49,683 nucleotides of DNA, from NCBI RefSeq assembly GCF_031178505.1, contig NZ_JAPSIW010000002.1, forward strand, positions 1-49,683, in the 5' to 3' direction. The notes under the pieces are model-generated. The model was not told where the DNA came from. It was given only the letters and a program-made list of their open reading frames with translations, and made no database searches. Shown one piece after another: positions 4,700 through 33,926 of the stretch (the first letter of the stretch is position 1; every line of letters begins with the position of its first letter). The stretch comes from Streptomyces sp. GTDB taxonomy: Bacteria; Actinomycetota; Actinomycetes; Streptomycetales; Streptomycetaceae. The translations under genes were made by a program, and so were the position numbers.

Positions 4700-5287
4700 T
4701 TACTCGGATGCGGTGCCATCATGCCCTCTCCCGTTCGGCGATGGGACCGAAGGGGACGTCAGTCGGTGTGTCGCACCGAGACCGGACCGAAACTCGGCCG
4801 GTCGCTGGGCTGCCCAGCCCGAGACCACCTCCGGATCGTCGGCGGTCCGGACGTGGGTGAAGCCGTGTTCGAGGTAGTAGGCCTGGAGCCGCAGGTTCGT
4901 GCTCCAAGCGTCCAGCCGGAGCCACTTGGCCCCGTGCTGGACAGCCTGGTCACCCGCCCAGTCCAGGAGTGCGCTGCCGAGTCCCGTGCCGGCGTAAGCG
5001 CGGTCCACGGCGAGCTTGTGCACGTACAGAGCAGGCTCCGCGATTTCCTCCGGAGTCCACAGGCGGGTGTCAGCGTCGCGATCCAGGGTGATGGTCGCCG
5101 CAGCGTCCGCGTGGGGCTCCTCGCGGATCATGAAGACCTCGCCACGGCGGATCGAGTCAAGAATGTGGTCGGCCGGGAAGGGCTTGGCCCACTGGTCGGT
5201 GCCGAGAGTCCGCAGCCACGCGGAAGCATCTGTGCGGAACTTGATCAGCCGAGGAAGGTCGGCCTCTTCGGCGGGAGCGATGATCAC
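4700..5287 (-). CDS. GNAT family N-acetyltransferase
   Basis: About 195-199 residues with the acetyl-CoA-binding core of GNAT enzymes: motif A LYVHKLAVDRAYAGTGLGSA with the G-x-G pyrophosphate loop near residue 105, and motif B LQAYYLEHGF near 140. GTG 5287 is preferred because it makes a GTGA overlap with the upstream gntR stop and has GGGGGAA just before it; GTG 5299 would add four residues. Coupling to a GntR repressor implies joint control, and the substrate may be related to the inducer. The target (drug, amino acid or protein) cannot be read from sequence. The C-terminal tail after about residue 170 is low complexity. Confidence 0.88.
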   Translation of the reverse strand: MIIAPAEEADLPRLIKFRTDASAWLRTLGTDQWAKPFPADHILDSIRRGEVFMIREEPHADAAATITLDRDADTRLWTPEEIAEPALYVHKLAVDRAYAGTGLGSALLDWAGDQAVQHGAKWLRLDAWSTNLRLQAYYLEHGFTHVRTADDPEVVSGWAAQRPAEFRSGLGATHRLTSPSVPSPNGRGHDGTASE

Positions 5288-6084
5288 GGGTTCCCCCACG
5301 GGATGCGAGGCGCGTCCGTACCAGCCTCGCGGTGGGTCTCGAACACGATCACGTGCCGATCGCCGGGGATGAGGTTCACGGTGACCTGGACCGCGTTGCC
5401 CTCGCTGTCGAAGGTGGTCGACAGGTGCTCGGCGACAGGGACGCCCGCACCGAGCTGAAGCCGCTGCACCTCGTCCGGCATGGGCATCCGGAGGTAGAAC
5501 TCGTGGAAGCCGTAGACCAGCTCGTGGCCCAGTTCGCCCAGCACCGCGTTCGTGCCGCGCGCAACGTCGCCGGGGTGCATGAAGTCGGTCCCCTGAACGA
5601 GGGAAAGGCGCACGTACGAGTCGTTGAGGTTGTACGGGACGTCATCGAGCTTGCGCACTCGCCGGCGGGCGGCCGCCAGCTCGCCCGGCTCAAGGCCCAG
5701 GCGCTCGCGGATCGCGGGGGTGGGGTCCACGATCGAGACTTCGATCTCCTGTGACGGCGTCCGGCCGTCCTCCTCCTGGACCAGGTTCGTGAAGATGTCG
5801 ACCTCGGGCGGCTTCTGCCTCAGCTCCGCCTGGGGGCGGTAGACCAGCCGCTTGCGCTGGATGACGAAGTAGCCCTTCGGGCGGCGAGCCTCGATCAGGC
5901 CTTCGTGCACGAGCACGCCCAAGCCTTGCCGGATGGTCTGCCGGGAGCGGACTCCGTGCAGCTCACCGTACTTCTCAAGGAGTTCAGCCTCGGTGGGCAT
6001 CTGGGAGCCGGGCGGGAACGTGCCATCAGAAATCTGGCGGCGGAGATCATCAGCGATCTGTTGGTAGACGGGCGTGGGCTTCAT
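5284..6084 (-). CDS. GntR family regulator, HutC/UTRA subfamily
   Basis: About 266 residues from ATG 6084 (MKPTPVYQQIADDLRRQISDG). The N-terminal winged helix has the usual pattern PPGSQMPTEAELLEKYG, then RQTIRQGLGVLVHEGLIEARRPKGYFV. A UTRA effector-binding domain follows (about 95-255). An upstream ATG at 6126 is possible, but it would place codons within the operator at 6112-6129, so 6084 is favoured. GntR proteins of this type (KorSA, TraR) control transfer or replication in Streptomyces plasmids. The two palindromes upstream suggest autorepression and perhaps control of the divergent leader at 6315. Confidence 0.9.
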   Translation of the reverse strand: MKPTPVYQQIADDLRRQISDGTFPPGSQMPTEAELLEKYGELHGVRSRQTIRQGLGVLVHEGLIEARRPKGYFVIQRKRLVYRPQAELRQKPPEVDIFTNLVQEEDGRTPSQEIEVSIVDPTPAIRERLGLEPGELAAARRRVRKLDDVPYNLNDSYVRLSLVQGTDFMHPGDVARGTNAVLGELGHELVYGFHEFYLRMPMPDEVQRLQLGAGVPVAEHLSTTFDSEGNAVQVTVNLIPGDRHVIVFETHREAGTDAPRIPWGNP

Positions 6085-6111
6085 GCCGTCATGTGTACAG
6101 CCCTGCCCCGC

Positions 6112-6129
6112 GCATTGTCCAGTCAATGC
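6112..6129. promoter_or_regulatory. GntR operator 1
   Basis: GCATTGTCCAGTCAATGC is an inverted repeat (GCATTG / CAATGC) just upstream of the gntR start. On the minus strand it contains TTGACT, a possible -35 box. It nearly duplicates the site at 6191-6208. Confidence 0.75.
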
Positions 6130-6190
6130 GTGCGGACTGGTTGATGTGCTTGACGTGGCGCCCGGTGGGTGTCAGAGTCGTCCTCGCAAC

Positions 6191-6208
6191 GCATTGTCTG
6201 GTCAATGC
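6191..6208. promoter_or_regulatory. GntR operator 2
   Basis: GCATTGTCTGGTCAATGC, a second copy of the same palindrome with two changes in the middle, lies 79 bp from the first. Two matching dimer sites in the intergenic region suggest looping or control in both directions. Confidence 0.72.
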
Positions 6209-6314
6209 AATTCGACCGGATGATCTGTGTTGCATGAATGATGCGCACTGCTACGCCGCATAGCGGTCCGGAACCAACGTCGAATGACGGAAGGCCGGTG
6301 CGGGAGCGTCCGTT

Positions 6315-6340
6315 CCTTGAGAACTCAACAGCGTGCCAAA
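6315..6340 (+). promoter_or_regulatory. rRNA-leader-like element upstream of the transfer operon
   Basis: The stretch contains GAGAACTCAACAGCGTGCC, a sequence I know from leaders and spacers of actinobacterial rRNA operons, where it is linked to processing or antitermination. Here it precedes a hairpin and a tRNA-like sequence, and the first transfer gene starts 237 bp downstream. It suggests an unusually stable or antiterminated long transcript. Confidence 0.5.
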
Positions 6341-6361
6341 GATGAGTAATTGGGCCGGATT

Positions 6362-6398
6362 CCGCCGGGCCTCCTCCCTATGGAGGGGCGCCCGGCGG
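6362..6398 (+). terminator. strong two-part hairpin in the transfer-operon leader
   Basis: CCGCCGGGC (6362-6370) pairs perfectly with GCCCGGCGG (6390-6398); inside, CCTCC and GGAGG close a CTAT loop. No U-run follows, so it is more likely a leader RNA structure or conditional attenuator than a simple terminator. It lies between the rRNA-leader motif and the tRNA-like segment. Confidence 0.5.
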
Positions 6399-6455
6399 CA
6401 TTCAACGGCACAGGTCATGAGGGGCGTGCCCGACTGGTTCGGGCTCTCCGGAGAC

Positions 6456-6480
6456 AGGGGTTCGAGTCCCCGCTCGCCTA
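6456..6480 (+). other. tRNA 3'-end-like sequence (T-arm plus acceptor strand)
   Basis: AGGGGTTCGAGTCCCC is a good T-arm, with TTCGAGT as loop and four G-C pairs (the fifth is mismatched), followed by CTCGCCTA as a possible acceptor strand and discriminator. I could not find a matching 5' acceptor (AGGCGAG) or normal anticodon arm upstream, so this is not a complete tRNA. It may be a tRNA remnant or the tRNA-identity segment of an attachment site. Confidence 0.35.
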
Positions 6481-6576
6481 CCGCGCCGTCCCCAGTACGG
6501 CGCGACCCCCGACACGGCGTTGCAGCGCCAGATGTGCCGGGGGTCCACGGATCTACCAGCGAAGGAACCGATCCGC

Positions 6577-6963
6577 ATGACCATCATGCCCGCCAACATG
6601 CCCTTCTCCGCCACCGGGATCGCCCAGGAGGTCCGGGAGACCGCCATCGAGGTCTTCCCCCTCTTCCAGTCGATCCAGAAGCTGGCCCGCCTCGGCGTGC
6701 GCATCGCCTTCGAGGTGGCGCCCTCGCGCATCGTCGCCACGATCACGGTCACCGCGGAGGCGGTGAAGGTCCTGCCGGCGCTGCTGGAGGAGATCGACGA
6801 CGCTCGCCCGGGTTCGCTGCCGGACGGGAAGCTCGTCGTCACCGGCTCGATGTGCGAGGGGAACGTCACCCTGCGGGTGCTGATCCCGCAGGAGTGGGTG
6901 ACCGCCGAGGAGCTGGCGGTGCTGACCGGCACCGCCGACGCCGACCCCTCCGACCTGCTGTGA
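6577..6963 (+). CDS. hypothetical protein, first gene of the transfer module
   Basis: 128 residues from ATG 6577 with an upstream AGCGAAGGAA. Mixed alpha/beta character with an amphipathic GIAQEVRETAIEVFPLFQSI helix, hydrophobic strands, and an acidic C-terminus (TADADPSDLL). Not recognised. It ends in a GTGA overlap with the next gene, so three genes to 7495 are translated as a coupled set. Position at the head of the operon suggests a role in plasmid transfer or spread. Confidence 0.75.
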   Translation: MTIMPANMPFSATGIAQEVRETAIEVFPLFQSIQKLARLGVRIAFEVAPSRIVATITVTAEAVKVLPALLEEIDDARPGSLPDGKLVVTGSMCEGNVTLRVLIPQEWVTAEELAVLTGTADADPSDLL

Positions 6964-7079
6964 GCGCCGCGTCCGAGGCCGCCGAGGCGGCCCGCAAGGC
7001 GGAGGAAGCCCGACAGCAGGCACAGGCCGACTTGCAGCGCCACGGCCAGACCATGACCAGGCTCGGAGGACGACGGTGA
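6960..7079 (+). CDS. 39-residue coiled-coil peptide between coupled genes
   Basis: GTG at 6960 overlaps the previous stop, and its own stop overlaps the next GTG at 7076. The peptide is nearly all helix-forming (ASEAAEAARKAEEARQQAQA) and ends in TRLGGRR. The two flanking 4-nt overlaps are the main support that it is translated; without it there would be an unexplained 112-base gap. Function unknown. Confidence 0.6.
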   Translation: MSAASEAAEAARKAEEARQQAQADLQRHGQTMTRLGGRR

Positions 7080-13247: not shown

Positions 13248-13320
13248 CCGCCCCGGCATGAAAGCGCCGGGGCGGAAAGCCCTCGGGAGGGGCCCCGGCG
13301 AAACCGCCGGGGCCCCTCCC
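13248..13320 (+). terminator. tandem hairpins, terminator before traB
   Basis: The first stem pairs CCGCCCCGGC (13248-13257) with GCCGGGGCGG (13266-13275). The second pairs 16 bases perfectly (13285-13300 with 13305-13320) around AAAC and is followed by TTCTTTCC, a fair intrinsic terminator. The RBS of traB begins directly after it, so read-through or a nearby promoter must supply traB. Confidence 0.75.
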
Positions 13321-20421: not shown

Positions 20422-20672
20422 GGTGGAAATGTAGCCAGATAATTGGGCCGCGTGCTGCTGCCGCTGTGACGCGGGGTGCCGTGAGGCAACCACCGGTGCG
20501 GCAGGGGAAATCCGCTGTTGGTGAGTCGTAGGGTCAAAGAGGATGGATCATGTCCGGCCGCTCTTGAGCATCCGGGCGGGGCCGGGGGGCGCCCCTGGTC
20601 CCGTCCGTGGTGACAGTGCGCCGGGCCGGGTCCATGACCTGTGCCCTACCAGCACCACGGGGGAGAACGCGT

Positions 20673-23600
20673 ATGAGCATCGGGGGAGTGGAGCCGCCGC
20701 TCCGCGAGGACGAGGAGAACCGCAGTGACGCAGCTCAGCAGGCACGGGCAGACGGCTCGGGAGTATTGGGAGACGTACCGGCCGCAGGCCCTGGAGTCGC
20801 TGGGGAGCCCCGAGCAGCAGGCGGCGTTCTTCCAGGAGCTGGACCTGCGGGTGACGGAGAAGATCGGGCAGGTGACGACCGAACTCCTCCAGAAGCTCCC
20901 GATGGAGCAGCGCGCGGCGGCCCGGCGGGCGACCAGGTCGCAGGCGCAGGAGCTGGTGTACGCGGAGGAGATCTGGCTGGAGAAGGAGCCGGGGACGGAG
21001 CACCGGGAGATGTAGCGCCTCCTCGCTTCCGGCCGGAGGGGCAGCGGGACCTCGCCCCTGCGGGGCAGGGGGAGCGGGCTCGCGCCAACCTCGCGGCCCT
21101 GGAGACGCTGCGAGTCCTGGAGCGTGAGCAGCGACCGGCCACCGAGGAGGAACAGCGGACCCTCGCGCGCTGGTCCGGTTGGGGCGCCCTGCCCGTCATC
21201 TTCAACCCGCGGCCGGCGCGTGCGGCGTTCGACGCCGACGAGCCCTTCGAGCGGGCCGTAGCGCGCTGGGACGCGGTCAGTGACCTACGCGAGCAGATCC
21301 GGGAACTCCTCTCCGAGGACGAGTGGGCGGCGGCCCGCCACAACACCATCAACGCGCACTACACCGACGCCGACCTGGTCCGCTCGATCTGGGGCGCGGT
21401 CCGCGGGCTGGGCTTCACCGGCGGCCGCGTCCTCGAACCCGGCTCCGGTAGCGGCAACTTCATCGGCTTCGCGCCGATCCTGACCTCGACCCCGGTGCAG
21501 ATGACCGGCGTGGAGGTCGAGCCGACCACCGCGGCCATCGCCCGCCACCTGTACCCGGACGCCGAGATCATCACCAGCGGCCTGGAAGAGGTCCCGCTCG
21601 CCGACGGCGGCTTTGATGGCGTCGTTGGCAACGTGCCCTTCGGTCGCTACAAGCGGTTCGACAAGGTCCACAACGCCGACCTGTCGCTCTCCATCCACGA
21701 CCACTTCGTGCTGAAGTCGCTGTACGCCACCCGGCCGGGCGGCGTCGTCGCGCTCATCACCTCGCGCTACACCATGGACGCGGAGAAGCCGGACGCGCGG
21801 GAGCGCATGTACCAGCTCGGCGACCTGGTCGGCGCGGTCCGTCTGCCCGCCCGGGCGCATATGGCGGCGGCCGGGACGGACGTCGTCACCGACGTGCTGT
21901 TCCTGCGGCGCCGGATGCCCGGCGAGGAGCCGGGGGACAAGACGTGGCTGACGTCCCGCAAGCGGGTGCTGCCCGGCCACGACGACGAACTGGCGGTGAA
22001 CTCCTACTTCGACGCGCACCCCGAGTACGTGCTCGGCGAGCTGCGCGCGGGCTCCCGGGAGTGGGGGCCGGAGGTCACCGTCGTCGGCCGTACCGACCAG
22101 ACGCCGGCGGAGTCCCTGGCGGCCGCGGCCGCCGCCATTGCGGTGGAGGCCCGGGCCGCCGGGCTCACCGCGGCCGCCGACCAGCGCACCGAGCCGGTGC
22201 AGACGATCGTCACCGGCGGCACCGAGGGAGCGCTCGGGCTGGACGCCGAGGGCAACCCCACGATCATCGACGGCGGCCGCCCGGTCCCGCTGGAGATCCA
22301 CCCCGACCAGCGCGACCAGCTTGTCCAGCTCATCCGCCTCAAGGGCCTGACCCTGAAGCTGTACGAGACGGAGGCGGACACCCCCGAGCCGGGGGAGACT
22401 CCGCAGCTCGCGGCGCTCCGCGCGGAGCTGCGGGTGGCCTGGCGGGACTACCGCAAGAAGCACCCGCCGCTGACCAAGCCGCGCCAGCACTACGTCTTCA
22501 CGCCCCCCGAGGCCCGCGAGCAGGCCAAGGCGCAGGGCCTGAAGGAAGTCCCGGCCGCGTGGAAGCAGCGCACCGCGTTCGCCTGGATTGACGACGACCC
22601 CGACGCCTCGCTGCTGTTCGGCCTGGAGGAGTGGGACGAACGCACGGGCAAGGGCACCGAGCAGAAGGTGCTGCTGACCCGCGTCCTGGAGCCGCGCATC
22701 CTGCCGGCCCGGGCCAACAGCCACGAGGACGCCATCGCCCTGGCGATGGAGTACGACGGCGGGCGCCTGGACATGAGCCGGGTCGCCAGCCTCCTGGGGC
22801 TGGACGAGGAGAGCGCGGCCGCGCAGTGCGCGGACGCCGGGCTCGCCTACCGCGACCCGCTCCAGGACGACGCGTGGGAGCCCCGGCACCGCTACCTGTC
22901 CGGCAACGTCCGCGCCAAGCTCGCGGCCGCCCGGGAGCGGGCCGCCGAGGACCCGACGTTCCAGGGCAACGTCTCCGCCCTGGAGCGGGTCCAGCCCGCC
23001 GACCTGGCGCCCTCCGAGATCAAGGCGAAGATCGGCGCCCCGTGGATTCCGGTCGAGACCTACAACGACTTCCTCGCTCACCTGGGCTTCGAGGACGCCA
23101 GTGTGCTGCACGCGGGCGGCACCGTGTGGGAGGTCCGCGGCGCGAAGAACGGGGACCTGGCGCGCACCGAGTGGGGCACCAGCTCCCGGCCGACGCAGGA
23201 CCTGTTCAGTGCACTGCTGCGGCAGGCCGACTCGACCATCCAGGTCACCTACCGCGACAACGAGGGCCGGACCTACGTCGACAAGGCCGCCACGGACGAG
23301 GCGCAGGAGAAGGCCCGGCTGATCGCCGAGGCCTTCGAGGACTGGGTGTGGGCCGACGAGACCCGCGCGGCCAACCTCGCGAAGATCTACAACGAGCAGT
23401 TCAACAACCTGGTGCTGCCCGAGTATTCGGGCTCCGCGCTGACCCTTCCCGGCCTGATCAGCGGCTGGACGATGAAGGAGCACCAGAACGCCGCGATCCG
23501 CCGGATCGTCAACGAGCCGACGGCGCTGCTCGCCCACGTCGTCGGCGCGGGCAAGACGGCGACCATGGCCGCCGGCGCGATGGAGCTGCGCCGAACCGGA

Positions 23601-26600
23601 CTGGCGAAGAAGCCGTGCCTGATCGTGCCCAACCACATGCTCAAGCAGTGGTCGCGCGAGTTCCGGCAGCTCTACCCGAACGCGAAGATCCTGGCGATCA
23701 CCGCGAGCGACCTGAGCAAGAAGCGCCGCGCCAAGTTCATGGGCCGGATCGCGGGCGGCGACTGGGACGCCGTGATCCTCACGCACGAGGCGTTCAACCG
23801 GGTGCCCCTGCGGCCGGACACCCAGCGCAACTACCTCGACCACGAGATGCAGTCGCTGCGCGACCAGCTCGACATCGCCGCTCAGGCCGGGATGCACCGC
23901 AACACGGTCAAGCAGATCGAGGAGAGCTTGGCCAACGCGGAGGCCAAGCTCCAGCAGCAGATCGAGTCCATGGGCGACGACAACGGCGTCTACCTGGAGG
24001 ACACCGGCGTCGACTACGTCTTCCTGGACGAGGCGCACGAGTACAAGAACCTGCGCACCGTCTCGGCGATCCCCGGCGCCGCGATCCAGGGCTCGGCGAA
24101 GGCCACCAAGCTCCACATGGTGCTGGACTACCTACGCACGACCAACGAGTCCAACCGCGTGGCGACCCTGGCCACCGGCACCCCGATCGCCAACTCGGTG
24201 ACCGAGGCCTACGTCCTCAAGCGCTACCTCGCCCCTCAGATCTTGGAGGAGATGGGGCTCGACGCCTTCGACAACTGGGCCGCCACCTTCGGTGAGGTCG
24301 TCTCCCAACTGGAGCCCGACCCCAAGGGCGACGGGTACAAGTACAAGGCGCGCTTCAGCCGCTTCTTCAACGTGCCGGAGCTGATGGCGGCATACAGGAC
24401 GTTCGCCGACGTGCAGATGGCGGAAGACCTGGACCTGCCCACGCCGCCCGTGCTGGAGAACGAGGACGGGCAGCGCGGCGAGACCGTCCTCATCCCGCCC
24501 ACCCCGGCGCAGCGCCAGTTCATCAAGGAGCTGCCGCACAAGCCCTGGGTGCGTAAGCCCGGCGGCGTCCTGAAGGCCCTCGGCGAGGGCCTGCGCGCCT
24601 CCGTCGACCTGGACCTGGTCGACGCCACCGAGGCGCTGCGCAACCTCGGCTTGAGCATCACGGCCGAGCAGATCTCCAGCGAGGACCCGGCGGGCGGCGG
24701 GCGCGTGCTGGACATGGAGAAGGTCGCCGACCTCGCCGACGCTGCCGCCGTCGACATGCGCAGCGTCGGCGGCAGCAAGGAGATGGGCAGCAAGATCCCG
24801 TATGCGGCCGAGAAGATCGCGGAGATCTGGCAGGAGACGAAGGACATCGTCTACCCGGTCTCCGGGGACGATCCGACCCCGCAGGAACTGCCCGGCGGCC
24901 TCCAGCTCGTCTTCCTGGACGAAGGCACCCCCGGCAGCACCGCCAAGCACGCCGCCGACCTGTACGCGGACCTGCGCGACGAACTGGTGCAGCGGGGGAT
25001 GCCGCGCGAGTCCATCCGCTTCATCCACGAGGCGTCCACCGACCGCAAGAAGGAGAAGCTGTTCGCCGACTGCCGCTCCGGACGCGTCCGCGTTTTGGTC
25101 GGATCTACGCAGAAGATGGGCACCGGCACGAACATCCAGGACAGGGCGGTCGCACTGCACCACCTGTCCTACCCGTGGCGGCCGGCGGACATGGCCCAGC
25201 GCGACGGCCGTATCGAGCGGCGCGGCAACCTCAACGCCCCGTGGATCGAGAACACCCCCGACCACGTCCGCATCCTGTACTACATCACCGAGCGCACCTT
25301 CGATGAGTTCCGGCTGACCACCCTCGCCCGCAAGGCGAGGTTCATCGGCCAGATTCAGCGCAAGGACTTCAGCGCCCGAGAGATCGAGGACATCGGCGCC
25401 GACGCCATCAACCTCGGCATGCTCTCCGCCCTGGCCTCCGGTGACCCGGCGATCCTGCAACTGGCTGAGGCCACCGCCGAACGCGCCCGGCTTCAGGGCC
25501 TGGCCCGAAGCTGGGACCGCCAGCAGGACACCCGCACGCAGCAGCTCGGCGACATTGACGACTTCCTCGCCCGCGCGGACACCGCCCTGGAAGGCATGCG
25601 GGCGGCGGCCCCCAACCGGCGCCCGACCACCGGCGACGACTTCGCCATGACCGTGGGCGACGCCACCTACCGCAGCCGCGACGCGGCCGCGAACGCGCTC
25701 GGGGCCAAGATGGTCGCCATCGCCCAGGACCAGTCGCTGCGGCCCGGTGAGCGCGTCCCGGTCGGCACCTTCGGCGGGCAGGACTTCCACGCGGAGGTCG
25801 CCTACGGGGCCAGCGGCCGCCGCCAGATGCGCCTGCGCTACGCCTGGGGGTACGTCGTACCGCTGGGCCAGCGCGAGGACCGTGCGCAATGGCAGGCCTC
25901 ATCCGTCACCCAGTCCAACGGCCGCGGCGCCATCCAGAGCCTGGAGCACTTCCTCAACCACCTGGACGACGACCTCGTCAAGCTGGAGCAGTCGGCCGAG
26001 TCCCTGCGGGCCCGCCGCGAGGAGATCGCCTCCAACCTCCGCCCGAAGGACGAGAACCCCTACCGCATCCAGGCCCGTTCCAAGGAACGGGAGGAGAAGG
26101 CGCTGGGCAAGCTGGTCGTCGCCAACGAGAAGGAGGCCGCCCTCGCCGAGCGGATCGAACGGGCCGCGAGCGTCAACGAGGACGCCGCCGAGGAGGTCAA
26201 CGAGGAACTCGAAGCGCTGCGCGAGCACATCGCCAACCTGCGCAAGACCATCGCCGACGAACACCAGATCCAGGCCCGGGCCCGGGGCCTGACGCAGGAC
26301 GAGAGCAGGTCCGACGACGCGCCCAACCCTAATGCGCCTACCCCTGCGGAGAAGGCCGCACTGGAAGCGTTGGCACAGGACATGGCCGATGCGTTCTTTC
26401 CCGAGGACAGTGCCCAACGGCCGACTGCGCGGTCGTCCGCAGGCGGTGCCGAGCCCGGGCAGGAGGACCCGCCGGCCGAAGCGCAGGACCAGTCCAGCCC
26501 GGACGCGGGGACCGGACAGAGCACCCCTGAACCCGATGCTCCCGGTGAACCCGAGGCGGAGCCGTCCCCCGGCCCGGTGACGCCCGAGGCCTCGGGCGAC

Positions 26601-29600
26601 GGTGCGGCCGACGACGAAGAGGACAGGGAACAGCGGTTCAGGGAAGAGGTGGACAACCTCTTCTCCGGCGCCGTACCGGAGCCGGAGGGGCCTGACTCGC
26701 CCGAGGAGACGGCACCGCTCCAGGAAGTGGTCGACCTGTTCGGCGACCGGGTGTCGGTGACTCACATCGGCGGCCCGCAGCCTCCGGCGGAGTCTGCCAC
26801 CGAGGTGCCCGCCGGTGAGCCGGACACCCCTGCCCCGCAGTCGGAGCCGGAGCCGGAGCCGGAGTCGGAGCAGCAGCAGCCGGAGCCGGAGCCGGAGCCG
26901 GAGCAGCACACCGGCCCCTCGCCGGCCATGGCCCGGTGCGCGGCTGTCCTGCGGTACTACGAGCCGCTGTTGCAGCGCCACAAGCTGTCCGGCCGCGACG
27001 TCGTCGCCTACATCGACCGGCCCGGCGTCGGGTTCTCCTACGACCCGGACAACCCGCTGCCCGAGCTGATCCACCAGATCGGCAAGGTCGCCGAACGCGT
27101 CGGCGGCTCCTACCGCGTCAGCTACAACGAGTGGGTCAACTACCAGGTCGGCGAGCGCCGCCAGCAGCAGAGCGACGACCTGACCAACCTGAACCTGGAC
27201 CTGCTCACCCTGTACCAGGGGGAGACCGATCCCCTGTTCATGGTCGACCTGGAGGCGATCCTCGCCGCCCCGCCCGGCACCGTCATCGAGCTGCCGTCCG
27301 AGGCGCAGATCGAGGCGGAAGAGGCGGCCGCGGCCCGCATCGTGATCGACCACGACGCGGAGGGCACCGAGGTCCGCAACACCCCGCGCGGCGGGGACCA
27401 GCGCATCCGGGACGCGCTGAACGACCTGGACTTCAACTGGTCGCGCCGTCAGCAGAAGTGGTACCAGCGTCGCGGCACCCCCTTCGAGGACCGTGACACG
27501 GCCGTACGCGGCCTGCGCGCCGCCTTCGAGCGGCTGGGCGTCCCCTACACCTACAACGGCCCCGACCAGCAGGACACAGAAGAGACCACGGAGGCCACCC
27601 CGCAGGAGACCGACGCCCCGGCTGGGCCGGTGCAGACCGAGCCCACTGCGGACGTCTCCGCCACACATGGCGCGGCCCTCGCCCCCGTCCGCCAGTCCGC
27701 CGGATGGGCCATCATGGCGGTCCTCAGCGAAGACCAGGTGCGCGGACTGGTCAGTGCCGTCGCGGTCGACGGCCAGCCGGTCAGCACCCAATCCCGGCGC
27801 CTGCCGGGGGACCGGGTACGGGAGTGGATCGCCGAGCAGCGGCAGACGCCGACGACAGCCTTCTACGCCTCGGACAGCAGTGAGCTGCCCTCCGCCCTGC
27901 GCGGCGCCGGCGACGTGCGCCTGTCGGCCCACATCAACGGGCTGACCATCGACCAGGGCGACGTGTCCTTCCGGACCCCGTGGGAACACCTCCCCGCCTG
28001 GATCGACGCCGCCGTCGCGCACGACACCGCCACCCGCTCCAGTGACCTGCCTGCGTGGCGCTACGGCCGTCTGGACCACGAAATCCATTTCCGGATCGAC
28101 GAGCGCAACGAGTCCGCGGCCCTGGCGCTCCGCGCCCTGGCCACCGCGCTGCGCGAGACCGCCCCGCCCACCGACGAACAGTTCGCCGAAGCACGGGCCA
28201 GATTCGCCCCGGTGGCTGCGGCCGCCGACGCGGAGCCCGAGCCGGGCACGGTCAGCCCTGAGCCCGCCCCGCCGGCCGCCGCCGAAACGCAGACCGAGCC
28301 CGCCGCACCCGGTGACACCGGGGTGCCGGAGAACGAGCCGGAAGACCCGGAGGCCGACGACACCGACACCGACACCGTCCCGGCGGCCGAGGACGCGGTG
28401 GTCGTGCAGACGCCGGACGGGCCCGGCACGGTCATCGGCACCGACGACGGCGACCTGGTGCTGGTCACCACCGAGTCCGGCACCCGCGTCTGGGAACGCG
28501 GTGAGGTGCAGTGGCCCGACGGTTCGGTCCAGCCGGAGAACACCGACCGGGCCGCCAAGGAACGACAGAACGCCGCGGACGCCGCGCAAGCCGCGACCTC
28601 CGAGGGCATCGAGCTGCGCTACGGCAACGGCAACCGGCTGGTCGACCTGGACACCGAGGCCGGACACGGCACCGTGGTCGACGCCGACGGCGCGGTGATC
28701 GGCTGGGTCCGTGCCCGCATCGGCGACGACGGCCGCCGCTACTGGTGGGCGCAGGACGCACGCGGCGGTTCCCCCGACGACATGCCTTACCACGAGTCGC
28801 TGCCGCCCACCGCGGGCGTACCGGCGATCCGGGCGGCCGGGAGTATCCGCTCCGAGCTGCACGCGGTGAAGGAACCGGCACACCGCAGCCCCATCCCTGC
28901 CGAGTACGCCGCCCGCGAGGTGCGGCTGACCACGGCTCAGGTCCGGGAGCTGCGCCGCCTGGTGCTCGATGCCACCTACTCGGACGGCACCCCGATCGAG
29001 CCGCCGGAGTGGGTGGCCTCGCACCGCAAGTACGTCCTGACCGTCGGGCAGATGCAGGCCCTCGGCGACGCGGCGCAGGCCGCCGCCGACGCCTTCCCCG
29101 GCGTCACTGCCGAGGAACGGCGCACCGCCCGCGTGCTGCGCAACGCCGCCGAGCGCTTCGAGTTCGAGGTGTACGACACCGCCCGGTGGCGGGCCACCAT
29201 CCCGCCGATCGGAGAGACGGACCCCTACGCCGGGCCCTACCAGCCTCGCCCCCGGCCCGAGGCGCCCGAGGCGGAGCAGCAGACGACGGAGGCGCCCGCC
29301 CCGGCCCCTGAGCCCGCGGACACCGAGACGCAGGACTCCGCCGCGAACGAGGCGGACCCTGCGGCCCCGGCGGACACCGGCGCCCCGGCACCGGCCGAAA
29401 CTCCGGAGGAGGCGGCCCCCGCCGACCCGCAGCCCGAGGACAGCACTCAGGCGGCACCGGCCACCGCAGCGGGGGACACTCCCGCGCCGGACCCCGCACT
29501 CACGGAGGCCGCCGCGCCCGGGCCGCCGACCGACGCAGCACCGGACAGTGAGGGAGCCGAGGACGACGAGACGCAGCTCGACCTCTTCCCCAGCGAGACG

Positions 29601-32600
29601 CCGGAGCCCCCGGCGACCACACGTCGGCCCGGCGGCCGGCGACGCGTCAGCCGGAGGGAGCCCGCCATCCACCCGGGCGCCGAGGGCGGCCCGGAAGACG
29701 GACGCCTGGGCGTCTACGGGCACGCCGGGCACGGCGAGTGCGACCGGTGCGGCACCCCCGACACCGACCGCTACACGATGGTGTGGACCTGGTACACCGG
29801 CACCGAGACCGGCGGCGCCATGGCCGCCGAGTGCGGGAGCTGTGTCGAGCTGACCACCGGCCTGACCTACAAGGAGTACCGGCGCCTGGCCGACGTCGCC
29901 GAGGCCCGGCGCGGCGGCCGGCGCATCGTGCCGACCCCGTACGCCAAGGGTGACGTCACCGGCAGCCGCACGGCCGAGAACGAGTGGACCTACGTCCACC
30001 AGCCCACCGGCAAGCGGTACCGGCTCGCCGAGGAAACCCCGAGCGGATACCGGGGCTTCGTCCTGCGGGACCTGTACGGCATCTCCCAGGGCACGGGCGT
30101 CTCCACGAGTTCCGGCTACGAACTGGCCGAGCGGGCGGCCCTGGGGCGCACGGCGGAGACCCACCCGAACGACAGCGACGACTGGGTGTTCTTCGGCTAC
30201 CGCTCCGACGCGGGCAAGCTGACGCTCCACGAGGGCGAGAGCATCAACACCGACCATCCCAACGGGCCCCGCCGCAGCGATGCCCCGTTCGAGCACGGAC
30301 CGCGCTGGGACATCACCGTCGGCGGCTCCGACTACCAGGTGGAGATGGTCTACCAGCAGGGCCCGCCCGGGCAGGACGGCCACCGGCTGGAGGTCACCGC
30401 CCCCGACGGCACGAGCGCCCGCCACGTCCAGTGGGACGGCGTGCTGGAGTGGGCGCGCGAACGTGTCCGCGCGCCTGAGCCGGAGCGGGCGGCCACAGCA
30501 CTGGCCGCGCCGCTGGCCGAGGTGGAGGAAGCCCTCACCGCCGCAGAGGGCATCCGTGAAGCCGTCCAGCGCCGCAGCACCACCACGGCCCTGGTCCAGG
30601 CGCGCGAGGCCTGGGAGCGGGCACGGTCCCACTACGAGGCCGGTCGGCTCGCCGAGGGAGACGGCCACCTTGCCACGGCGCGCAGTCACGCGATCCTGGC
30701 CCGGTACCGGGAGAGCAGTCACGCCGACTTCCAGCCGCTCATGGACGCCGTGCGCCGGTTCCACGACGCAGTGGACGAGGTCCTCTACCCGGGCGGCGCG
30801 GGCTGGCGGCCGGCGGTGGGCGACTACGTCCGCGCCCGACACCGCTTCGTGCCGGAATCCGAGGGCTTCTGGATGAAGGTCACCGCGATCGGGGCCGACG
30901 GCATCCACGTCGAGTCCGGTTCGACCGGCGACGCCAAGACCGTCGTGCAGCCCACCGACCTCGGGCCGCACGCTGATCTGCCCTGGCAGGAACAGCCCTC
31001 CCGCGCCCCCGGCGAGCCGAGGGCGTCGGACCAGGAACGGCGGGACCTCCTCGGCATGCCGCCGCAGCCGGTGCCCGACCCCGCCCCCGCGCGGCCGCAG
31101 AGCCCGCCCGCCGACCTGGACGAGGAGCAACTGGACCTCTTCGCCGCCGGGGCCCCGGAGCCGCCCGCCGCCCTGGAGGAGGCCGCACCGGCGGCCGACC
31201 CGGTCGACACCACGGCGTCCGACACCGAGGCGCCACGCGAGGGCAGTCTGGGCCTGGTCGACGGCGAGACGCTGACGTACCGCGGCCACTGGGACGGCCG
31301 CTACGAGATCACCCTCCCGGGCACCAGCTACCTGCTGTTCCTGCCCTCCATCGAGTACCGGCGCACGAAGTTCGCCGTCGCATCGAACGAGGACCCGGAC
31401 GCCATGTCCCCGAAGCGGCTGCGTCGGTTCGAGGAGGCGGAGGAGATCATGCCCTGGCTGCGGGCCCATGCCTCCAGGCAGCAGACCGGCTACGTCTTCC
31501 GTGACGGTGCGTGGAGTGAAGCCCCGCAGACCGCCGCACCGGAGCCGCCGGCGGACACCGCGGCCGCCGAGGACGAACAGCTCCCCCTCCTCGGGACCGA
31601 CGACACCGCCCCCGGCCCGGACACGGCGGCCGGAGAGAACCCGGCCGCCCCCGAGGCCTCGCCCGCCGAGGAGACCGCCCCCGACGCGTCGCCGGACGGT
31701 GCCCCCGCGCCGCAGGATGCAGACCAGGAACCCGACCAGCAAGACCAGGAGGAATCAGTGGCAGACGAGCCGGAACCCACCTCCGTCGCGACGGACGTCC
31801 CGGCCGTCACCCCGGCCGTGGAAGACCTCCCGGCGGAAGCCGACGTGCAGGAGGAAGCAGAGCCTGCCGTGGACGTCGAAGACCCGCCCGCCCCCCGCAC
31901 GTTCACGGAGGCGTTCCCGCTCGCCGCCGATGCCCGGTACCGGCTCCGGCTGACCACGGTGGAGGGCGAGGGCCCCCGCGACGGCGAGCTGCTGTACGGC
32001 GAGGTCACCGTTGCCGCCGTGCGCCTGTCCGCCTCCGGTCGCTGGTTCGCCCGGCTGGCGGTCGACGGCATGCCCGCCGACGTCACCGAACTCAACGGCT
32101 CGCCGATGGACGCCGCACGGCAGGGTGCGGTGATGTTCGCGGTCGTCACGGGGGAGCCGTACGGCGACCCACCGGCCGCGGTCAACGTCCGGGGGCCGCA
32201 GTCGCGGGCGGACGCGCTGCGCGTCGAACTGCGCACCGCCGCCGAGCAGCACCTGCGCACCATCACCGCAGCGGCCGCGCGAGCGAGCGAGAACTACGGG
32301 CAGAACCCCCTGTTCCAGGCCCTGAGCGTCCAACTCGGTCGCCTCGGTGCCGCCGACGTGGAAGACCACGGCTCGCAACAGATGGCCGCGAACCTCCGCG
32401 CCGTCCAGGAAGCGGTCAACGCCTGGGGGACCGCGCTGCCGGCGGACCCCGCCCTCGATGAGCGGCAGCACTTGGCCTTCCCGCTCATGAACCTGCTGCA
32501 CGAGACCAGGCGCATGCAGGTGCGCCTCCAGGCCACCCTGGACGCGATGGTGGCCGACCGTGCCGCCGCCCGGGAGCGGGAGGCCGCGGCCGCCGCAGCC

Positions 32601-33926
32601 GCCGCGCAGGCCGAACCCGTCCGTGACGACACCGCGCAGCAGGAGGCGGCCCCGGCGGCGGAGCCGGAGCCCGCTGCGGACCCGGCGGCCGCCGAGACGG
32701 CGGAACCGCCCGAGCCTGCCGACACACCCGGCCCGGAGCGGACTCCCGACGCGCCCGACCAGCCCGCCCCGCTCCCCGACGCCCCGGAGGACACCGAGAT
32801 GGCCACGCCCGCCCGACCCGCCACACCCGAGAGTCCGGCGGCCCCCGGCCCGGACGGCGCCGCCGAACCGGGTGAGGACCAGGCACCGGCCGACATCACG
32901 CAGCGCGAGGGACGCGTCGAACGCACCGGGCCCGACGAGCCCACGCCGCCCGCCGTCCCGGAGCCGGAGGCCGACCTGCCGCTGTGGACCGGCCCGACGG
33001 AGGCCTCCGTCCCGGAGACGGACCGCCCCCTCGGCGTCGTCGCCGACTTCGCGGCCGTCCAAGAGGCGTGGGACGAGCACGTGCCCGCAGACAAGGGCAC
33101 GGGCGCGGACCTGTTCGCCACCGTGGAGGACGAACTCCAACGGCTGGAGGCACTCTTCGCCGAGGCCGTGGCCAACCTGACCCCGCCCGCCGAACCGCAG
33201 CCCGCCCCCGCGCCGACACCGGCACTGGCCGCCGAGCCGCCGCAGCCCGCCCCCGCCTCCCCGCCGGCCGCCATGCCAGAGAAGGCGCCGGACCGCGACC
33301 CGCAGCAGGCGGCGGACGCAGTCAACGCGGCGCTGCGGGAGGCGGACGCCCACGCGCCCGCGCTCCAGGACCTGCCGGAGTGGCAGCGCATCCAGAGCGT
33401 GCGGGGAGCCTTCGGCCACCTGGTGCGCGTCATGAAGGAGCGGGCAGGCGAGCACTTCGGCAAGCTCATGGCCGACGGGCGCGTCGGCGACTTCGTACGC
33501 CGGGCCTCGATCGCCGCGTGCGAGAAGGTCGCCGGGTGGGCGCAGGCCGCCGCCGACAAGCTGCGCCGCCCCGACGAACGCGGCACGGACAAGCGCGAGG
33601 AGCTGCCCACCGCGGAGGCGCTGCTGCGGCTGGGAGACGCGGCCCTCGAGTACCGGGGACCGCGACGGGCGGGCGGCAGCACCCCGCCGCCGACGGCGAA
33701 CGGCGCCGCCCCGGTGGACATCCCGGCGATGCGCAAGATGGGGGAAGCCTTGAACCGGCCGATGCCCGGGGCCAAGCGCGGTGTGTCCGCGGCCGCCGCC
33801 CGGGGACGGTCGACCACCACGAAGCGAGGGAAGAAGCCCGCACCCGGCGCCAGCGCCGAGCAGGCCGGACACCTCCGCCGCGGCAGCACCGAGCAGCTGC
33901 CATCACGCAAGCCCACCCAACGCTGA
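20673..33926 (+). CDS. giant adenine-methylase plus DEAH/SNF2 helicase protein
   Basis: About 4,417 codons from ATG 20673, which has GGGGGAG upstream, but true coding bias in this frame begins only near 21013 (see the small gene at 20725). Conserved reading starts FRPEGQRDLAPAG. Domains by residue from 20673: methylase motif I LEPGSGSGNFIGFAP (about 254) and motif IV VGNVPFGRYKR (about 317); helicase Walker A VVGAGKTATM (about 958), DEAH in VFLDEAHEYKNL (about 1118), motif VI QRDGRIERRGN (about 1510); long coiled coil (1690-1890); Ala/Pro/Glu linkers; RGGDQRIRDALNDLDFNWSRR domain (about 2230); a Cys zinc-ribbon region (about 3020-3060). N12-class methylase-helicase fusions are carried by conjugative elements, and phage P1 DarB, which combines such domains, protects DNA from type I restriction. 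Confidence 0.8.
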   Translation: MSIGGVEPPLREDEENRSDAAQQARADGSGVLGDVPAAGPGVAGEPRAAGGVLPGAGPAGDGEDRAGDDRTPPEAPDGAARGGPAGDQVAGAGAGVRGGDLAGEGAGDGAPGDVAPPRFRPEGQRDLAPAGQGERARANLAALETLRVLEREQRPATEEEQRTLARWSGWGALPVIFNPRPARAAFDADEPFERAVARWDAVSDLREQIRELLSEDEWAAARHNTINAHYTDADLVRSIWGAVRGLGFTGGRVLEPGSGSGNFIGFAPILTSTPVQMTGVEVEPTTAAIARHLYPDAEIITSGLEEVPLADGGFDGVVGNVPFGRYKRFDKVHNADLSLSIHDHFVLKSLYATRPGGVVALITSRYTMDAEKPDARERMYQLGDLVGAVRLPARAHMAAAGTDVVTDVLFLRRRMPGEEPGDKTWLTSRKRVLPGHDDELAVNSYFDAHPEYVLGELRAGSREWGPEVTVVGRTDQTPAESLAAAAAAIAVEARAAGLTAAADQRTEPVQTIVTGGTEGALGLDAEGNPTIIDGGRPVPLEIHPDQRDQLVQLIRLKGLTLKLYETEADTPEPGETPQLAALRAELRVAWRDYRKKHPPLTKPRQHYVFTPPEAREQAKAQGLKEVPAAWKQRTAFAWIDDDPDASLLFGLEEWDERTGKGTEQKVLLTRVLEPRILPARANSHEDAIALAMEYDGGRLDMSRVASLLGLDEESAAAQCADAGLAYRDPLQDDAWEPRHRYLSGNVRAKLAAARERAAEDPTFQGNVSALERVQPADLAPSEIKAKIGAPWIPVETYNDFLAHLGFEDASVLHAGGTVWEVRGAKNGDLARTEWGTSSRPTQDLFSALLRQADSTIQVTYRDNEGRTYVDKAATDEAQEKARLIAEAFEDWVWADETRAANLAKIYNEQFNNLVLPEYSGSALTLPGLISGWTMKEHQNAAIRRIVNEPTALLAHVVGAGKTATMAAGAMELRRTGLAKKPCLIVPNHMLKQWSREFRQLYPNAKILAITASDLSKKRRAKFMGRIAGGDWDAVILTHEAFNRVPLRPDTQRNYLDHEMQSLRDQLDIAAQAGMHRNTVKQIEESLANAEAKLQQQIESMGDDNGVYLEDTGVDYVFLDEAHEYKNLRTVSAIPGAAIQGSAKATKLHMVLDYLRTTNESNRVATLATGTPIANSVTEAYVLKRYLAPQILEEMGLDAFDNWAATFGEVVSQLEPDPKGDGYKYKARFSRFFNVPELMAAYRTFADVQMAEDLDLPTPPVLENEDGQRGETVLIPPTPAQRQFIKELPHKPWVRKPGGVLKALGEGLRASVDLDLVDATEALRNLGLSITAEQISSEDPAGGGRVLDMEKVADLADAAAVDMRSVGGSKEMGSKIPYAAEKIAEIWQETKDIVYPVSGDDPTPQELPGGLQLVFLDEGTPGSTAKHAADLYADLRDELVQRGMPRESIRFIHEASTDRKKEKLFADCRSGRVRVLVGSTQKMGTGTNIQDRAVALHHLSYPWRPADMAQRDGRIERRGNLNAPWIENTPDHVRILYYITERTFDEFRLTTLARKARFIGQIQRKDFSAREIEDIGADAINLGMLSALASGDPAILQLAEATAERARLQGLARSWDRQQDTRTQQLGDIDDFLARADTALEGMRAAAPNRRPTTGDDFAMTVGDATYRSRDAAANALGAKMVAIAQDQSLRPGERVPVGTFGGQDFHAEVAYGASGRRQMRLRYAWGYVVPLGQREDRAQWQASSVTQSNGRGAIQSLEHFLNHLDDDLVKLEQSAESLRARREEIASNLRPKDENPYRIQARSKEREEKALGKLVVANEKEAALAERIERAASVNEDAAEEVNEELEALREHIANLRKTIADEHQIQARARGLTQDESRSDDAPNPNAPTPAEKAALEALAQDMADAFFPEDSAQRPTARSSAGGAEPGQEDPPAEAQDQSSPDAGTGQSTPEPDAPGEPEAEPSPGPVTPEASGDGAADDEEDREQRFREEVDNLFSGAVPEPEGPDSPEETAPLQEVVDLFGDRVSVTHIGGPQPPAESATEVPAGEPDTPAPQSEPEPEPESEQQQPEPEPEPEQHTGPSPAMARCAAVLRYYEPLLQRHKLSGRDVVAYIDRPGVGFSYDPDNPLPELIHQIGKVAERVGGSYRVSYNEWVNYQVGERRQQQSDDLTNLNLDLLTLYQGETDPLFMVDLEAILAAPPGTVIELPSEAQIEAEEAAAARIVIDHDAEGTEVRNTPRGGDQRIRDALNDLDFNWSRRQQKWYQRRGTPFEDRDTAVRGLRAAFERLGVPYTYNGPDQQDTEETTEATPQETDAPAGPVQTEPTADVSATHGAALAPVRQSAGWAIMAVLSEDQVRGLVSAVAVDGQPVSTQSRRLPGDRVREWIAEQRQTPTTAFYASDSSELPSALRGAGDVRLSAHINGLTIDQGDVSFRTPWEHLPAWIDAAVAHDTATRSSDLPAWRYGRLDHEIHFRIDERNESAALALRALATALRETAPPTDEQFAEARARFAPVAAAADAEPEPGTVSPEPAPPAAAETQTEPAAPGDTGVPENEPEDPEADDTDTDTVPAAEDAVVVQTPDGPGTVIGTDDGDLVLVTTESGTRVWERGEVQWPDGSVQPENTDRAAKERQNAADAAQAATSEGIELRYGNGNRLVDLDTEAGHGTVVDADGAVIGWVRARIGDDGRRYWWAQDARGGSPDDMPYHESLPPTAGVPAIRAAGSIRSELHAVKEPAHRSPIPAEYAAREVRLTTAQVRELRRLVLDATYSDGTPIEPPEWVASHRKYVLTVGQMQALGDAAQAAADAFPGVTAEERRTARVLRNAAERFEFEVYDTARWRATIPPIGETDPYAGPYQPRPRPEAPEAEQQTTEAPAPAPEPADTETQDSAANEADPAAPADTGAPAPAETPEEAAPADPQPEDSTQAAPATAAGDTPAPDPALTEAAAPGPPTDAAPDSEGAEDDETQLDLFPSETPEPPATTRRPGGRRRVSRREPAIHPGAEGGPEDGRLGVYGHAGHGECDRCGTPDTDRYTMVWTWYTGTETGGAMAAECGSCVELTTGLTYKEYRRLADVAEARRGGRRIVPTPYAKGDVTGSRTAENEWTYVHQPTGKRYRLAEETPSGYRGFVLRDLYGISQGTGVSTSSGYELAERAALGRTAETHPNDSDDWVFFGYRSDAGKLTLHEGESINTDHPNGPRRSDAPFEHGPRWDITVGGSDYQVEMVYQQGPPGQDGHRLEVTAPDGTSARHVQWDGVLEWARERVRAPEPERAATALAAPLAEVEEALTAAEGIREAVQRRSTTTALVQAREAWERARSHYEAGRLAEGDGHLATARSHAILARYRESSHADFQPLMDAVRRFHDAVDEVLYPGGAGWRPAVGDYVRARHRFVPESEGFWMKVTAIGADGIHVESGSTGDAKTVVQPTDLGPHADLPWQEQPSRAPGEPRASDQERRDLLGMPPQPVPDPAPARPQSPPADLDEEQLDLFAAGAPEPPAALEEAAPAADPVDTTASDTEAPREGSLGLVDGETLTYRGHWDGRYEITLPGTSYLLFLPSIEYRRTKFAVASNEDPDAMSPKRLRRFEEAEEIMPWLRAHASRQQTGYVFRDGAWSEAPQTAAPEPPADTAAAEDEQLPLLGTDDTAPGPDTAAGENPAAPEASPAEETAPDASPDGAPAPQDADQEPDQQDQEESVADEPEPTSVATDVPAVTPAVEDLPAEADVQEEAEPAVDVEDPPAPRTFTEAFPLAADARYRLRLTTVEGEGPRDGELLYGEVTVAAVRLSASGRWFARLAVDGMPADVTELNGSPMDAARQGAVMFAVVTGEPYGDPPAAVNVRGPQSRADALRVELRTAAEQHLRTITAAAARASENYGQNPLFQALSVQLGRLGAADVEDHGSQQMAANLRAVQEAVNAWGTALPADPALDERQHLAFPLMNLLHETRRMQVRLQATLDAMVADRAAAREREAAAAAAAAQAEPVRDDTAQQEAAPAAEPEPAADPAAAETAEPPEPADTPGPERTPDAPDQPAPLPDAPEDTEMATPARPATPESPAAPGPDGAAEPGEDQAPADITQREGRVERTGPDEPTPPAVPEPEADLPLWTGPTEASVPETDRPLGVVADFAAVQEAWDEHVPADKGTGADLFATVEDELQRLEALFAEAVANLTPPAEPQPAPAPTPALAAEPPQPAPASPPAAMPEKAPDRDPQQAADAVNAALREADAHAPALQDLPEWQRIQSVRGAFGHLVRVMKERAGEHFGKLMADGRVGDFVRRASIAACEKVAGWAQAAADKLRRPDERGTDKREELPTAEALLRLGDAALEYRGPRRAGGSTPPPTANGAAPVDIPAMRKMGEALNRPMPGAKRGVSAAAARGRSTTTKRGKKPAPGASAEQAGHLRRGSTEQLPSRKPTQR
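20725..21015 (+). CDS. small conserved protein overlapping the giant gene 5' end (TnpV-like)
   Basis: 96 residues from GTG 20725 with GAGGACGAGGAGAA upstream. Its frame has strong GC3 bias throughout, while the giant frame over the same bases does not, so this is the truly coding frame for 20725-21012. The sequence HGQTAREYWETYRPQALESL and later QAQELVYAEEIWLEKEPG resembles TnpV-like small proteins that I recall upstream of such helicases. It stops at TAG 21013-21015, exactly where the giant frame becomes coding; the giant frame is -1 relative to it. It may be a separate gene or the N-terminus of the giant protein by frameshift. Confidence 0.62.
   Translation: MTQLSRHGQTAREYWETYRPQALESLGSPEQQAAFFQELDLRVTEKIGQVTTELLQKLPMEQRAAARRATRSQAQELVYAEEIWLEKEPGTEHREM
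26841..26906. repeat. GGAGCC tandem microrepeat
   Basis: A run of GGAGCC hexamers with GGAGTC and CAG interruptions encodes alternating Glu-Pro in a linker of the giant protein. Such tracts are prone to slippage, so linker length probably varies between relatives. Confidence 0.75.

Follow-up and report, generated by a model that had tools for sequence, protein, structure and literature searches.

The closest described relatives of the RNA leader studied here are the antitermination signals of rRNA operons (boxB-boxA-boxC). Like these, the leader carries a sequence nearly identical to that of a 16S leader or, in some of its relatives, similar to the 16S-23S spacer; unlike them, the copy in the window (the whole 49,683-nt stretch of Streptomyces sp. 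DNA analyzed) precedes a plasmid protein operon and not rRNA. According to the available part of one study, NusA of Mycobacterium tuberculosis binds boxC-like RNA, with a function in rRNA antitermination (PMC6614801). A second related system is conAn of plasmid pLS20, described in the accessible passages of its report as processive antitermination at Gram-positive conjugation operons by a plasmid protein and its own RNA (PMC8955417). Common to both is an RNA element heading a conjugation operon (a likely one in our case) that has terminators inside it. The conAn system, however, consists of the ConAn1 protein and the conAn2 RNA, whereas the RNA of the window leader would be borrowed from host rRNA operons. 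The text of that paper makes no mention of rRNA, tRNA or Actinobacteria, and Streptomyces occurs there only in a reference title (PMC8955417).

For the second half of the leader, comparison has to be made with tRNA-like RNAs. Mitochondrial transcripts are punctuated by tRNAs, which serve as tRNA-shaped cut sites between genes; the elements described here differ in having no anticodon arm or only a remnant of one, and ARAGORN called none of the plasmid or phage elements a tRNA gene. The mascRNA and menRNA, whose maturation includes an RNase Z step, are likewise tRNA-like with shrunken arms, and they form the second of the weak Rfam matches of our leader by E-value. These are tRNA-like parts of long noncoding RNAs and substrates of RNase P, as stated in the available part of PMC4919913. 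The window and phage elements differ from them in being bacterial and in lying in 5' leader and intergenic positions, and the leader of the window scores far below the family threshold. Finally, the SAS/ESAS of cluster K mycobacteriophages are also repeated elements just before gene starts, but the available description presents ESAS as conserved repeats of 17 bp, and its authors find hairpins poorly supported (PMC3203893). Our elements have covarying stems and a kept T-loop, and we judged them different from ESAS by that partial published description.

The leader in the window has three parts, namely a 16S-leader copy, a strong hairpin and a tRNA-like element, and two more hairpins follow before the start codon at 6577. 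Its features and those of the surrounding locus are the following:

5284 to 6126, minus strand: divergent gene for a GntR-UTRA regulator (Pfam GntR and UTRA; a GntR gene lies in the same place in several relatives)
6112 to 6129, no strand: palindrome GCATTGTCCAGTCAATGC, probable operator 1 of the regulator (repeats D1/I1; operator role presumed)
6150 to 6178, plus strand: candidate promoter TTGACG-17-CAGAGT (by eye; TTGAC kept in several relatives)
6191 to 6208, no strand: palindrome GCATTGTCTGGTCAATGC, probable operator 2 (repeat search; role presumed)
6304 to 6340, plus strand: copy of the antitermination region of the Streptomyces 16S rRNA leader, with the core CTTGAGAACTCAACAG at 6316 to 6331
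6359 to 6401, plus strand: strong hairpin between the rRNA motif and the tRNA-like element, arms 6359 to 6370 and 6390 to 6401
6422 to 6429, plus strand: 5' acceptor strand, 8 nt, GGGCGTGC (RNAalifold without prior on relatives; covariation)
6430 to 6454, plus strand: linker, made up of a D-arm-like hairpin whose loop contains GG (6429 to 6443) and a tiny second hairpin (6444 to 6454); role presumed
6457 to 6471, plus strand: T-arm GGGG-TTCGAGT-CCCC, GGGGTTCGAGTCCCC, with the canonical T-loop TTCGAGT
6472 to 6482, plus strand: 3' acceptor strand GCTCGCCT (6472 to 6479), then A6480 (position 73) and CC
6482 to 6504, plus strand: hairpin directly behind the tRNA-like element
6504 to 6545, plus strand: second hairpin, CCCCCGRCACGGCG...GTGCCGGGGG, kept too in leaders without rRNA motif or element
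6561 to 6566: GAAGGA, probable ribosome site of the first gene
6577 to 6963, plus strand: first gene of the operon, 128 aa, start codon 6577
13285 to 13320, plus strand: terminator-like hairpin of 16 bp within the operon

The GntR-UTRA gene faces a series of plus-strand genes, and the candidate promoter lies between the two palindromes; a consensus promoter scan called none, including this by-eye candidate. The first gene has no family in Pfam or NCBIfam. The first-pass annotation had spoken of a transfer operon, which is likely but not proved, since one gene of the same series is annotated as TraB, a conjugal transfer protein, in one relative and the window gives a weak HerA/EccC profile match. 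An open reading frame at 6333 to 7079 was rejected as a coding leader because the indels in relatives are not multiples of three. Further along, a 4439-aa open frame at 20607 to 33926, with SNF2/ResIII helicase and Helicase_C matches, encodes a giant plasmid protein.

The rRNA-leader motif that had been noticed from the letters was confirmed. The segment 6304 to 6340 is 97.4% identical over 39 nt to a 16S rRNA leader (in L021, 16S rRNA comes next), and within its own genome it matches contig C741 at 90% over 42 nt (E 2.7e-9). Judged by sequence, this similarity is not due to chance, and the segment belongs with the rRNA-type nut sites of the actinobacterial leader boxA/boxC region; which of its letters are boxA and which boxC is our assumption. 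Of the 31 plasmid leaders in our table, 19 contain the motif by one fixed pattern, at a distance of 224 to 309 nt upstream of the start codon, and two others, L012a and L029, show a shorter core, GAACTCNACAG. In L013 we found a 16S-23S spacer signal instead (89% over 46 nt; in L052, 23S rRNA comes next); by eye, this part of the spacer can also be aligned with L014 and L016. Divergent plasmids thus keep an rRNA motif at the same place, some in the 16S-leader version and others in the 16S-23S-spacer version. These look like two separate captures, and they are the best hint that the motif works as a control signal. The proposal of an antiterminating leader is supported by this homology and by the layout, namely the kept motif, its two versions and the hairpin at 13285 to 13320, the like of which is seen in relative L009.

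A search with a 50-nt motif gave matches in 29 plasmid records, a number that may include true rRNA operons. In five further plasmids (L351 to L354 and L022), the rRNA motif lies within about 1.2 kb of a GntR gene, with at most two small genes between, before a plus-strand gene series. The tRNA-like element was not found in four of these five further leaders (L022, L351, L352 and L354). These four are Streptomyces or Kitasatospora plasmids with the motif near GntR at the head of the series and a long leader.

The strong hairpin at 6359 to 6401 was also borne out, and by eye the relatives have a hairpin with other letters in its place. Behind it, the T-arm and "tRNA 3' end" of the first-pass annotation turned out to be part of a larger tRNA-like element (6422 to 6482), which has an acceptor stem, a T-arm and an ACC end without a normal anticodon arm. 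It is not a tRNA gene, since ARAGORN found none in the window or at the elements of the relatives and Rfam at the gathering threshold reported neither a tRNA nor any other family in the window; against tRNA-Sec, the leader scored 13.2 bits (E 7.5, threshold 47). The other matches of the leader, all below threshold, were mir-1540 (E 0.15, on the hairpin 6359 to 6401), mascRNA-menRNA (RF01684; 14.0 bits, E 3.8, threshold 42.5, hence outside the family and possibly chance) and Yfr1 (E 6.2). On five related loci, too, the Rfam matches were only weak and below threshold.

Single-sequence folding gives little support for the window element. Its acceptor stem has a U-U mismatch, and its pairing is equaled by shuffled 3' strands in 27.6% of trials, as against below 5% for 7 of 13 leaders in the same test. 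The minimum-energy fold of the window forms another stem, with the acceptor absent (z -0.64), whereas the acceptor does form in the folds of L013 (z -3.8) and L033 (z -3.0). Two phage-type elements folded singly are ordinary (z about -0.9). Elsewhere in the window, a descriptor for the plasmid leaders (12-bp stack, T-loop consensus, at most one mismatch) matched twice on the plus strand and nowhere on the minus strand.

Evidence for the element comes from the relatives. Of the 31 tabulated leaders, 22 have the tRNA-like element and 17 both element and rRNA motif, and in 22 of 22 the element ends about 92 to 107 nt before the start codon. Of 26 matched plasmid records, 17 were examined, and the table includes the near-duplicates L032/L037 and L033/L039; L024, which shares its locus with L038, was left out together with L027 and the short matches L041 to L045, and L022 and L351 to L354 were judged apart from it. 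Motif and element are separable. By pattern, five leaders have the element only, L033 and L012b being among the examples, and two the motif only: by eye, L016 retains the acceptor and has a hairpin inserted in the T-arm, and L015 has a shrunken form. Neither was found in L017 to L020, L040, L048 and L049. All of these seven except L040 come from linear plasmids, most with an annotated whiB upstream. Ahead of the first gene that follows whiB they keep the same final hairpin, but in front of it another similar stretch (CCTGT...ACAGG in most) replaces the tRNA-like element. Two tRNA-like elements with different stems occur in the S. albidoflavus plasmid p81 (L012; from 706 and from 1466), each preceding its own small gene with the same hairpin module.

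The acceptor stems differ in letters and keep pairing. They read GAGCGGAT/RTCCGCTC in L013, L014, L029 and L046, GAGTGAG/CTCACTC in L033 and L039, and GGGCGGG/CCCGTCC in the MOBF-type plasmid L047, whose leader differs from the others. We aligned 17 of the 22 element-bearing leaders with MAFFT (alignment A1; L009, L037, L038, L039 and L047 left out), and RNAalifold predicted the acceptor stem unprompted, with changes from G-C to A-U at two pairs and from C-G to U-A at others. Over the 16 distinct rows, 92.1% of the cells pair (shuffled, 87.4), double changes occur in 6 pairs (3.1) and 16 cells (5.7), and covariation is 0.292 (0.198), a value reached by none of 500 shuffles; slid versions of the structure pair in 38 to 61%. 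Further pair types were no higher than in shuffles (9 vs 10.7; 496 of 500 shuffles at least as high). Structure is conserved in the relatives, as seen in the acceptor covariation; its absence was among the refuting outcomes named in the first-pass annotation. By these sequence comparisons, the element of the plasmid family is a tRNA-like acceptor/T-arm stack of 12 bp with a T-loop and a purine-C-C end.

A covariance model, R1, was built from the plasmid leaders with no tRNA in its training set. Run over 394 genomes of the class, it returned its own match (153 bits) and matches in 12 genomes outside (31 to 39 bits); at 12 of 12 of these sites ARAGORN finds tRNA-Leu. In four alignments the model lies on the T-arm, the 3' acceptor strand and a GC-rich hairpin behind, and its 5' acceptor strand falls inside tRNA-Leu and not on the true 5' acceptor strand. 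As modeled, the matches support a likeness to the 3' half of a tRNA plus hairpin, not to the whole fold. On sequences outside its training set, R1 gave 110 bits for L038, a member of the plasmid family, and 23 bits (E 8e-4) for L047. Of the 12 phage elements that L218 and L219 contain, it weakly finds 9 on the operon strand (E 0.002 to 0.68). Among its 17 matches at E up to 1, those off target are one in L353 and three antisense ones, and it misses the tRNA-like element of L353. The weaker argument from tRNA-Leu is balanced by this recognition of phage elements.

Searching with the rRNA motif led to Camvirus phages and IMG/VR contigs, with at least 120 matches in the scan of IMG/VR contigs, many of which may, by estimate only, be chance. 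In the Streptomyces phage Endor1 (IMG/VR copy, L107), the rRNA motif heads a leftward gene series. With a strict descriptor, Endor1 gave nine perfect elements, each about 44 nt long, and 49 kb of mycobacteriophage Konstantine gave seven; every one of them lies on the operon strand (9/9 and 7/7). Twenty shuffles of the two phages gave none and shuffles of the GC-rich window 0 to 2; the window's own element is not found by this descriptor. The arrays of perfect tRNA-like minihelices stand before early genes at 43485 to 48599 of L220 (Endor1) and 18877 to 24779 of L221 (part of Konstantine), and they are probably a new RNA class in their own right.

An annotated start codon follows 32 to 51 nt after the end of each of these 16 elements. 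In 11 of the 16, a hairpin with 5 bp or more starts at most 4 nt from position 73 (random positions, 14 to 16%), and in 15 of the 16 at most 14 nt from it (37 to 38%). The offset behind the element is 2 to 11 in phages and 0 to 3 in plasmid elements, 8 of 9 of which have such a hairpin. We then aligned 27 phage elements chosen by perfect pairing, including six of the seven from Konstantine (alignment A2). Because of this choice, their 97.6% pairing is partly by construction; the stems covary at 0.727 vs 0.157. Two features not selected for are invariant in 27 of 27, namely the linker GG at the place of tRNA G18-G19 and a purine at position 73 followed by C. Purine-C is also found in 15 of 16 of the Endor1 and Konstantine set, the left-out Konstantine element reading C at position 73 in the register of the descriptor. 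The phage versions lack C75.

Among the matches listed, 26 viral loci with the rRNA motif carry at least two strict elements, and in these 171 elements lie downstream on the same strand, with none upstream and none on the other strand; many of the 26 show similar stems and look like close relatives. At least two elements are carried by 12 of 33 contigs with the 18-nt rRNA motif. With the selection reversed, the association was one-way in the DNA examined: among the matches listed, the rRNA motif was seen in 0 of 30 viral loci that had been chosen for the element and carry two or more copies of it, although several of these loci may not reach back to a leader. Konstantine likewise has no rRNA motif in the 1.7 kb searched before its array. 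From the 0 of 30 it seems that the tRNA-like element is a wider class, to which the rRNA motif was added in some lineages. An early descriptor with a fixed 12 bp found the short element downstream at 6 of 110 viral sites, with none upstream and none antisense, and full-tRNA-like matches numbered 11 vs 5. Seven viral contigs (L054, L059, L077, L126, L130, L154 and L177) have full-size tRNA-like matches directly downstream of an rRNA-type motif; these may be real tRNA genes under an rRNA-type signal, or non-viral DNA. In the plasmid leader L353, the rRNA motif precedes an element of the phage type, whose 12-bp stack is perfect and whose linker measures 10 nt, a layout which links the plasmid and phage worlds. 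At 3195 to 3259 of L353, just behind the tRNA-like element, there is a weak Rfam match to sodF sRNA (30 bits, threshold 46).

We propose that the leader combines an rRNA-type antitermination site with an excision element of the RNase P/RNase Z type that leaves hairpin-first mRNAs, a reading to which we give an even chance. By homology, the nut-like site copied from an rRNA operon would load NusA, NusB-S10 and their partners on RNA polymerase, which could then read through the long leader, untranslated and rich in hairpins as it is, and through the terminator-like hairpin at 13285 to 13320. The tRNA-like element is predicted to fold as an acceptor/T-arm stack and would be cut as in a tRNA precursor, with RNase P acting just ahead of 6422 and RNase Z or exonucleases acting behind about A6480; RNase P measures from the elbow along the stack. 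Cutting would separate the antitermination leader from the coding mRNA, much as RNase III removes the nut site from the mRNA in the lambda N leader, and the product would begin with a few bases and a hairpin at its 5' end, followed by the ribosome site. In the available passages, RNase P needs a T-loop or a similar loop and the D-loop is dispensable (PMC4919913), and boxC in rRNA operons is likewise tied to maturation (PMC6614801). A role as processing signal is plausible and is our main hypothesis. This explanation is backed by the rRNA-derived sequence, the covarying fold in relatives, the nearly fixed distance to the start codon, the hairpin behind the element and the same arrangement in phages.

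In phages as in plasmids, the start codon lies at a nearly constant distance, which would also be expected if the element stayed uncut and acted in place, either by stabilizing the mRNA or by recruiting a partner that binds the tRNA elbow, such as the ribosomal L1 stalk, to help translate the next gene. This is in agreement with the presence of the element without rRNA motif in L033 and L012b and with the kept elbow features (T-loop, linker GG), and the L1 stalk, like RNase P, binds the tRNA elbow, according to the accessible part of PMC4919913. However, the purine and C after the acceptor and the hairpin directly behind are expected of a processing site and are not needed for an element acting in place, which we consider possible but rather unlikely. 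Chance or decay offers another account, in which a fragment of an rRNA leader and a broken tRNA gene would be functionless cargo. The imperfect acceptor and ordinary single-sequence fold of the window would fit such remnants, but the compensatory changes across relatives, the nearly fixed spacing in 22 leaders, the two kinds of rRNA signal at one place and the phage arrays do not, and we give it very little credence.

Since 3' ends of tRNA genes are common attachment sites, the tRNA 3' end could be an attachment site, as the first-pass annotation had suggested, with the plasmid integrating there into a tRNA gene of its host; integrases are annotated near L014 and L046. We rejected this role, to which we assign hardly any probability at all. 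A search for a 25-mer of the element with at most three mismatches in the window's own genome (84.6% complete) returned only the window copy, and the element varies by compensatory change, its paired upstream acceptor strand covarying; the relatives, moreover, are deposited as plasmids. It is also very improbable that the conserved inverted repeats at 6482 to 6545 act as DNA, for instance as an origin of transfer. The MOBP type of several relatives would fit, but a start codon follows about 33 nt after the second repeat, L012 has the module in front of two genes, and plasmids typed non-mobilizable keep it as well.

Cutting at the tRNA-like element thus remains our preferred reading. The parts of the leader are of known kinds; their combination and the element class shared by phages and plasmids appear to be new. 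In agreement with the first-pass annotation, which knew of no description of this combination, our literature searches, outside whose scope most subscription papers fell, found no report of an rRNA-derived signal or of tRNA-like elements in such leaders. The available part of the Endor1 genome paper (PMC7650747) has no mention of intergenic elements, hairpins or terminators, its tRNA passages concerning phage Coruscant, and that of the Vanseggelen/Verabelle paper (PMC10656467) contains no matching passage.

Overall, the data suggest that mobile elements dress their mRNAs as ribosomal and transfer RNA transcripts. More tentatively, we hypothesize a common device of actinobacterial plasmids and phages, in which a minimal tRNA-like RNA of about 44 to 60 nt before protein genes is cut and leaves a capping structure, in some cases behind a host-rRNA antitermination site. 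The device would have been assembled more than once, given the 16S-leader and 16S-23S-spacer signals and the plasmid and phage versions of the tRNA-like element, and protein operons would thereby be handled by the host as stable-RNA operons. If this is true, mobile elements hijack two stable-RNA pathways of their hosts, rRNA antitermination and tRNA maturation, and the leader would offer a small portable 5' module for Streptomyces. The elements before phage early genes would then form a class of structured RNA, one without a gathering-level Rfam match on the window, and the cutting of phage mRNAs between genes by RNase P would become directly testable.
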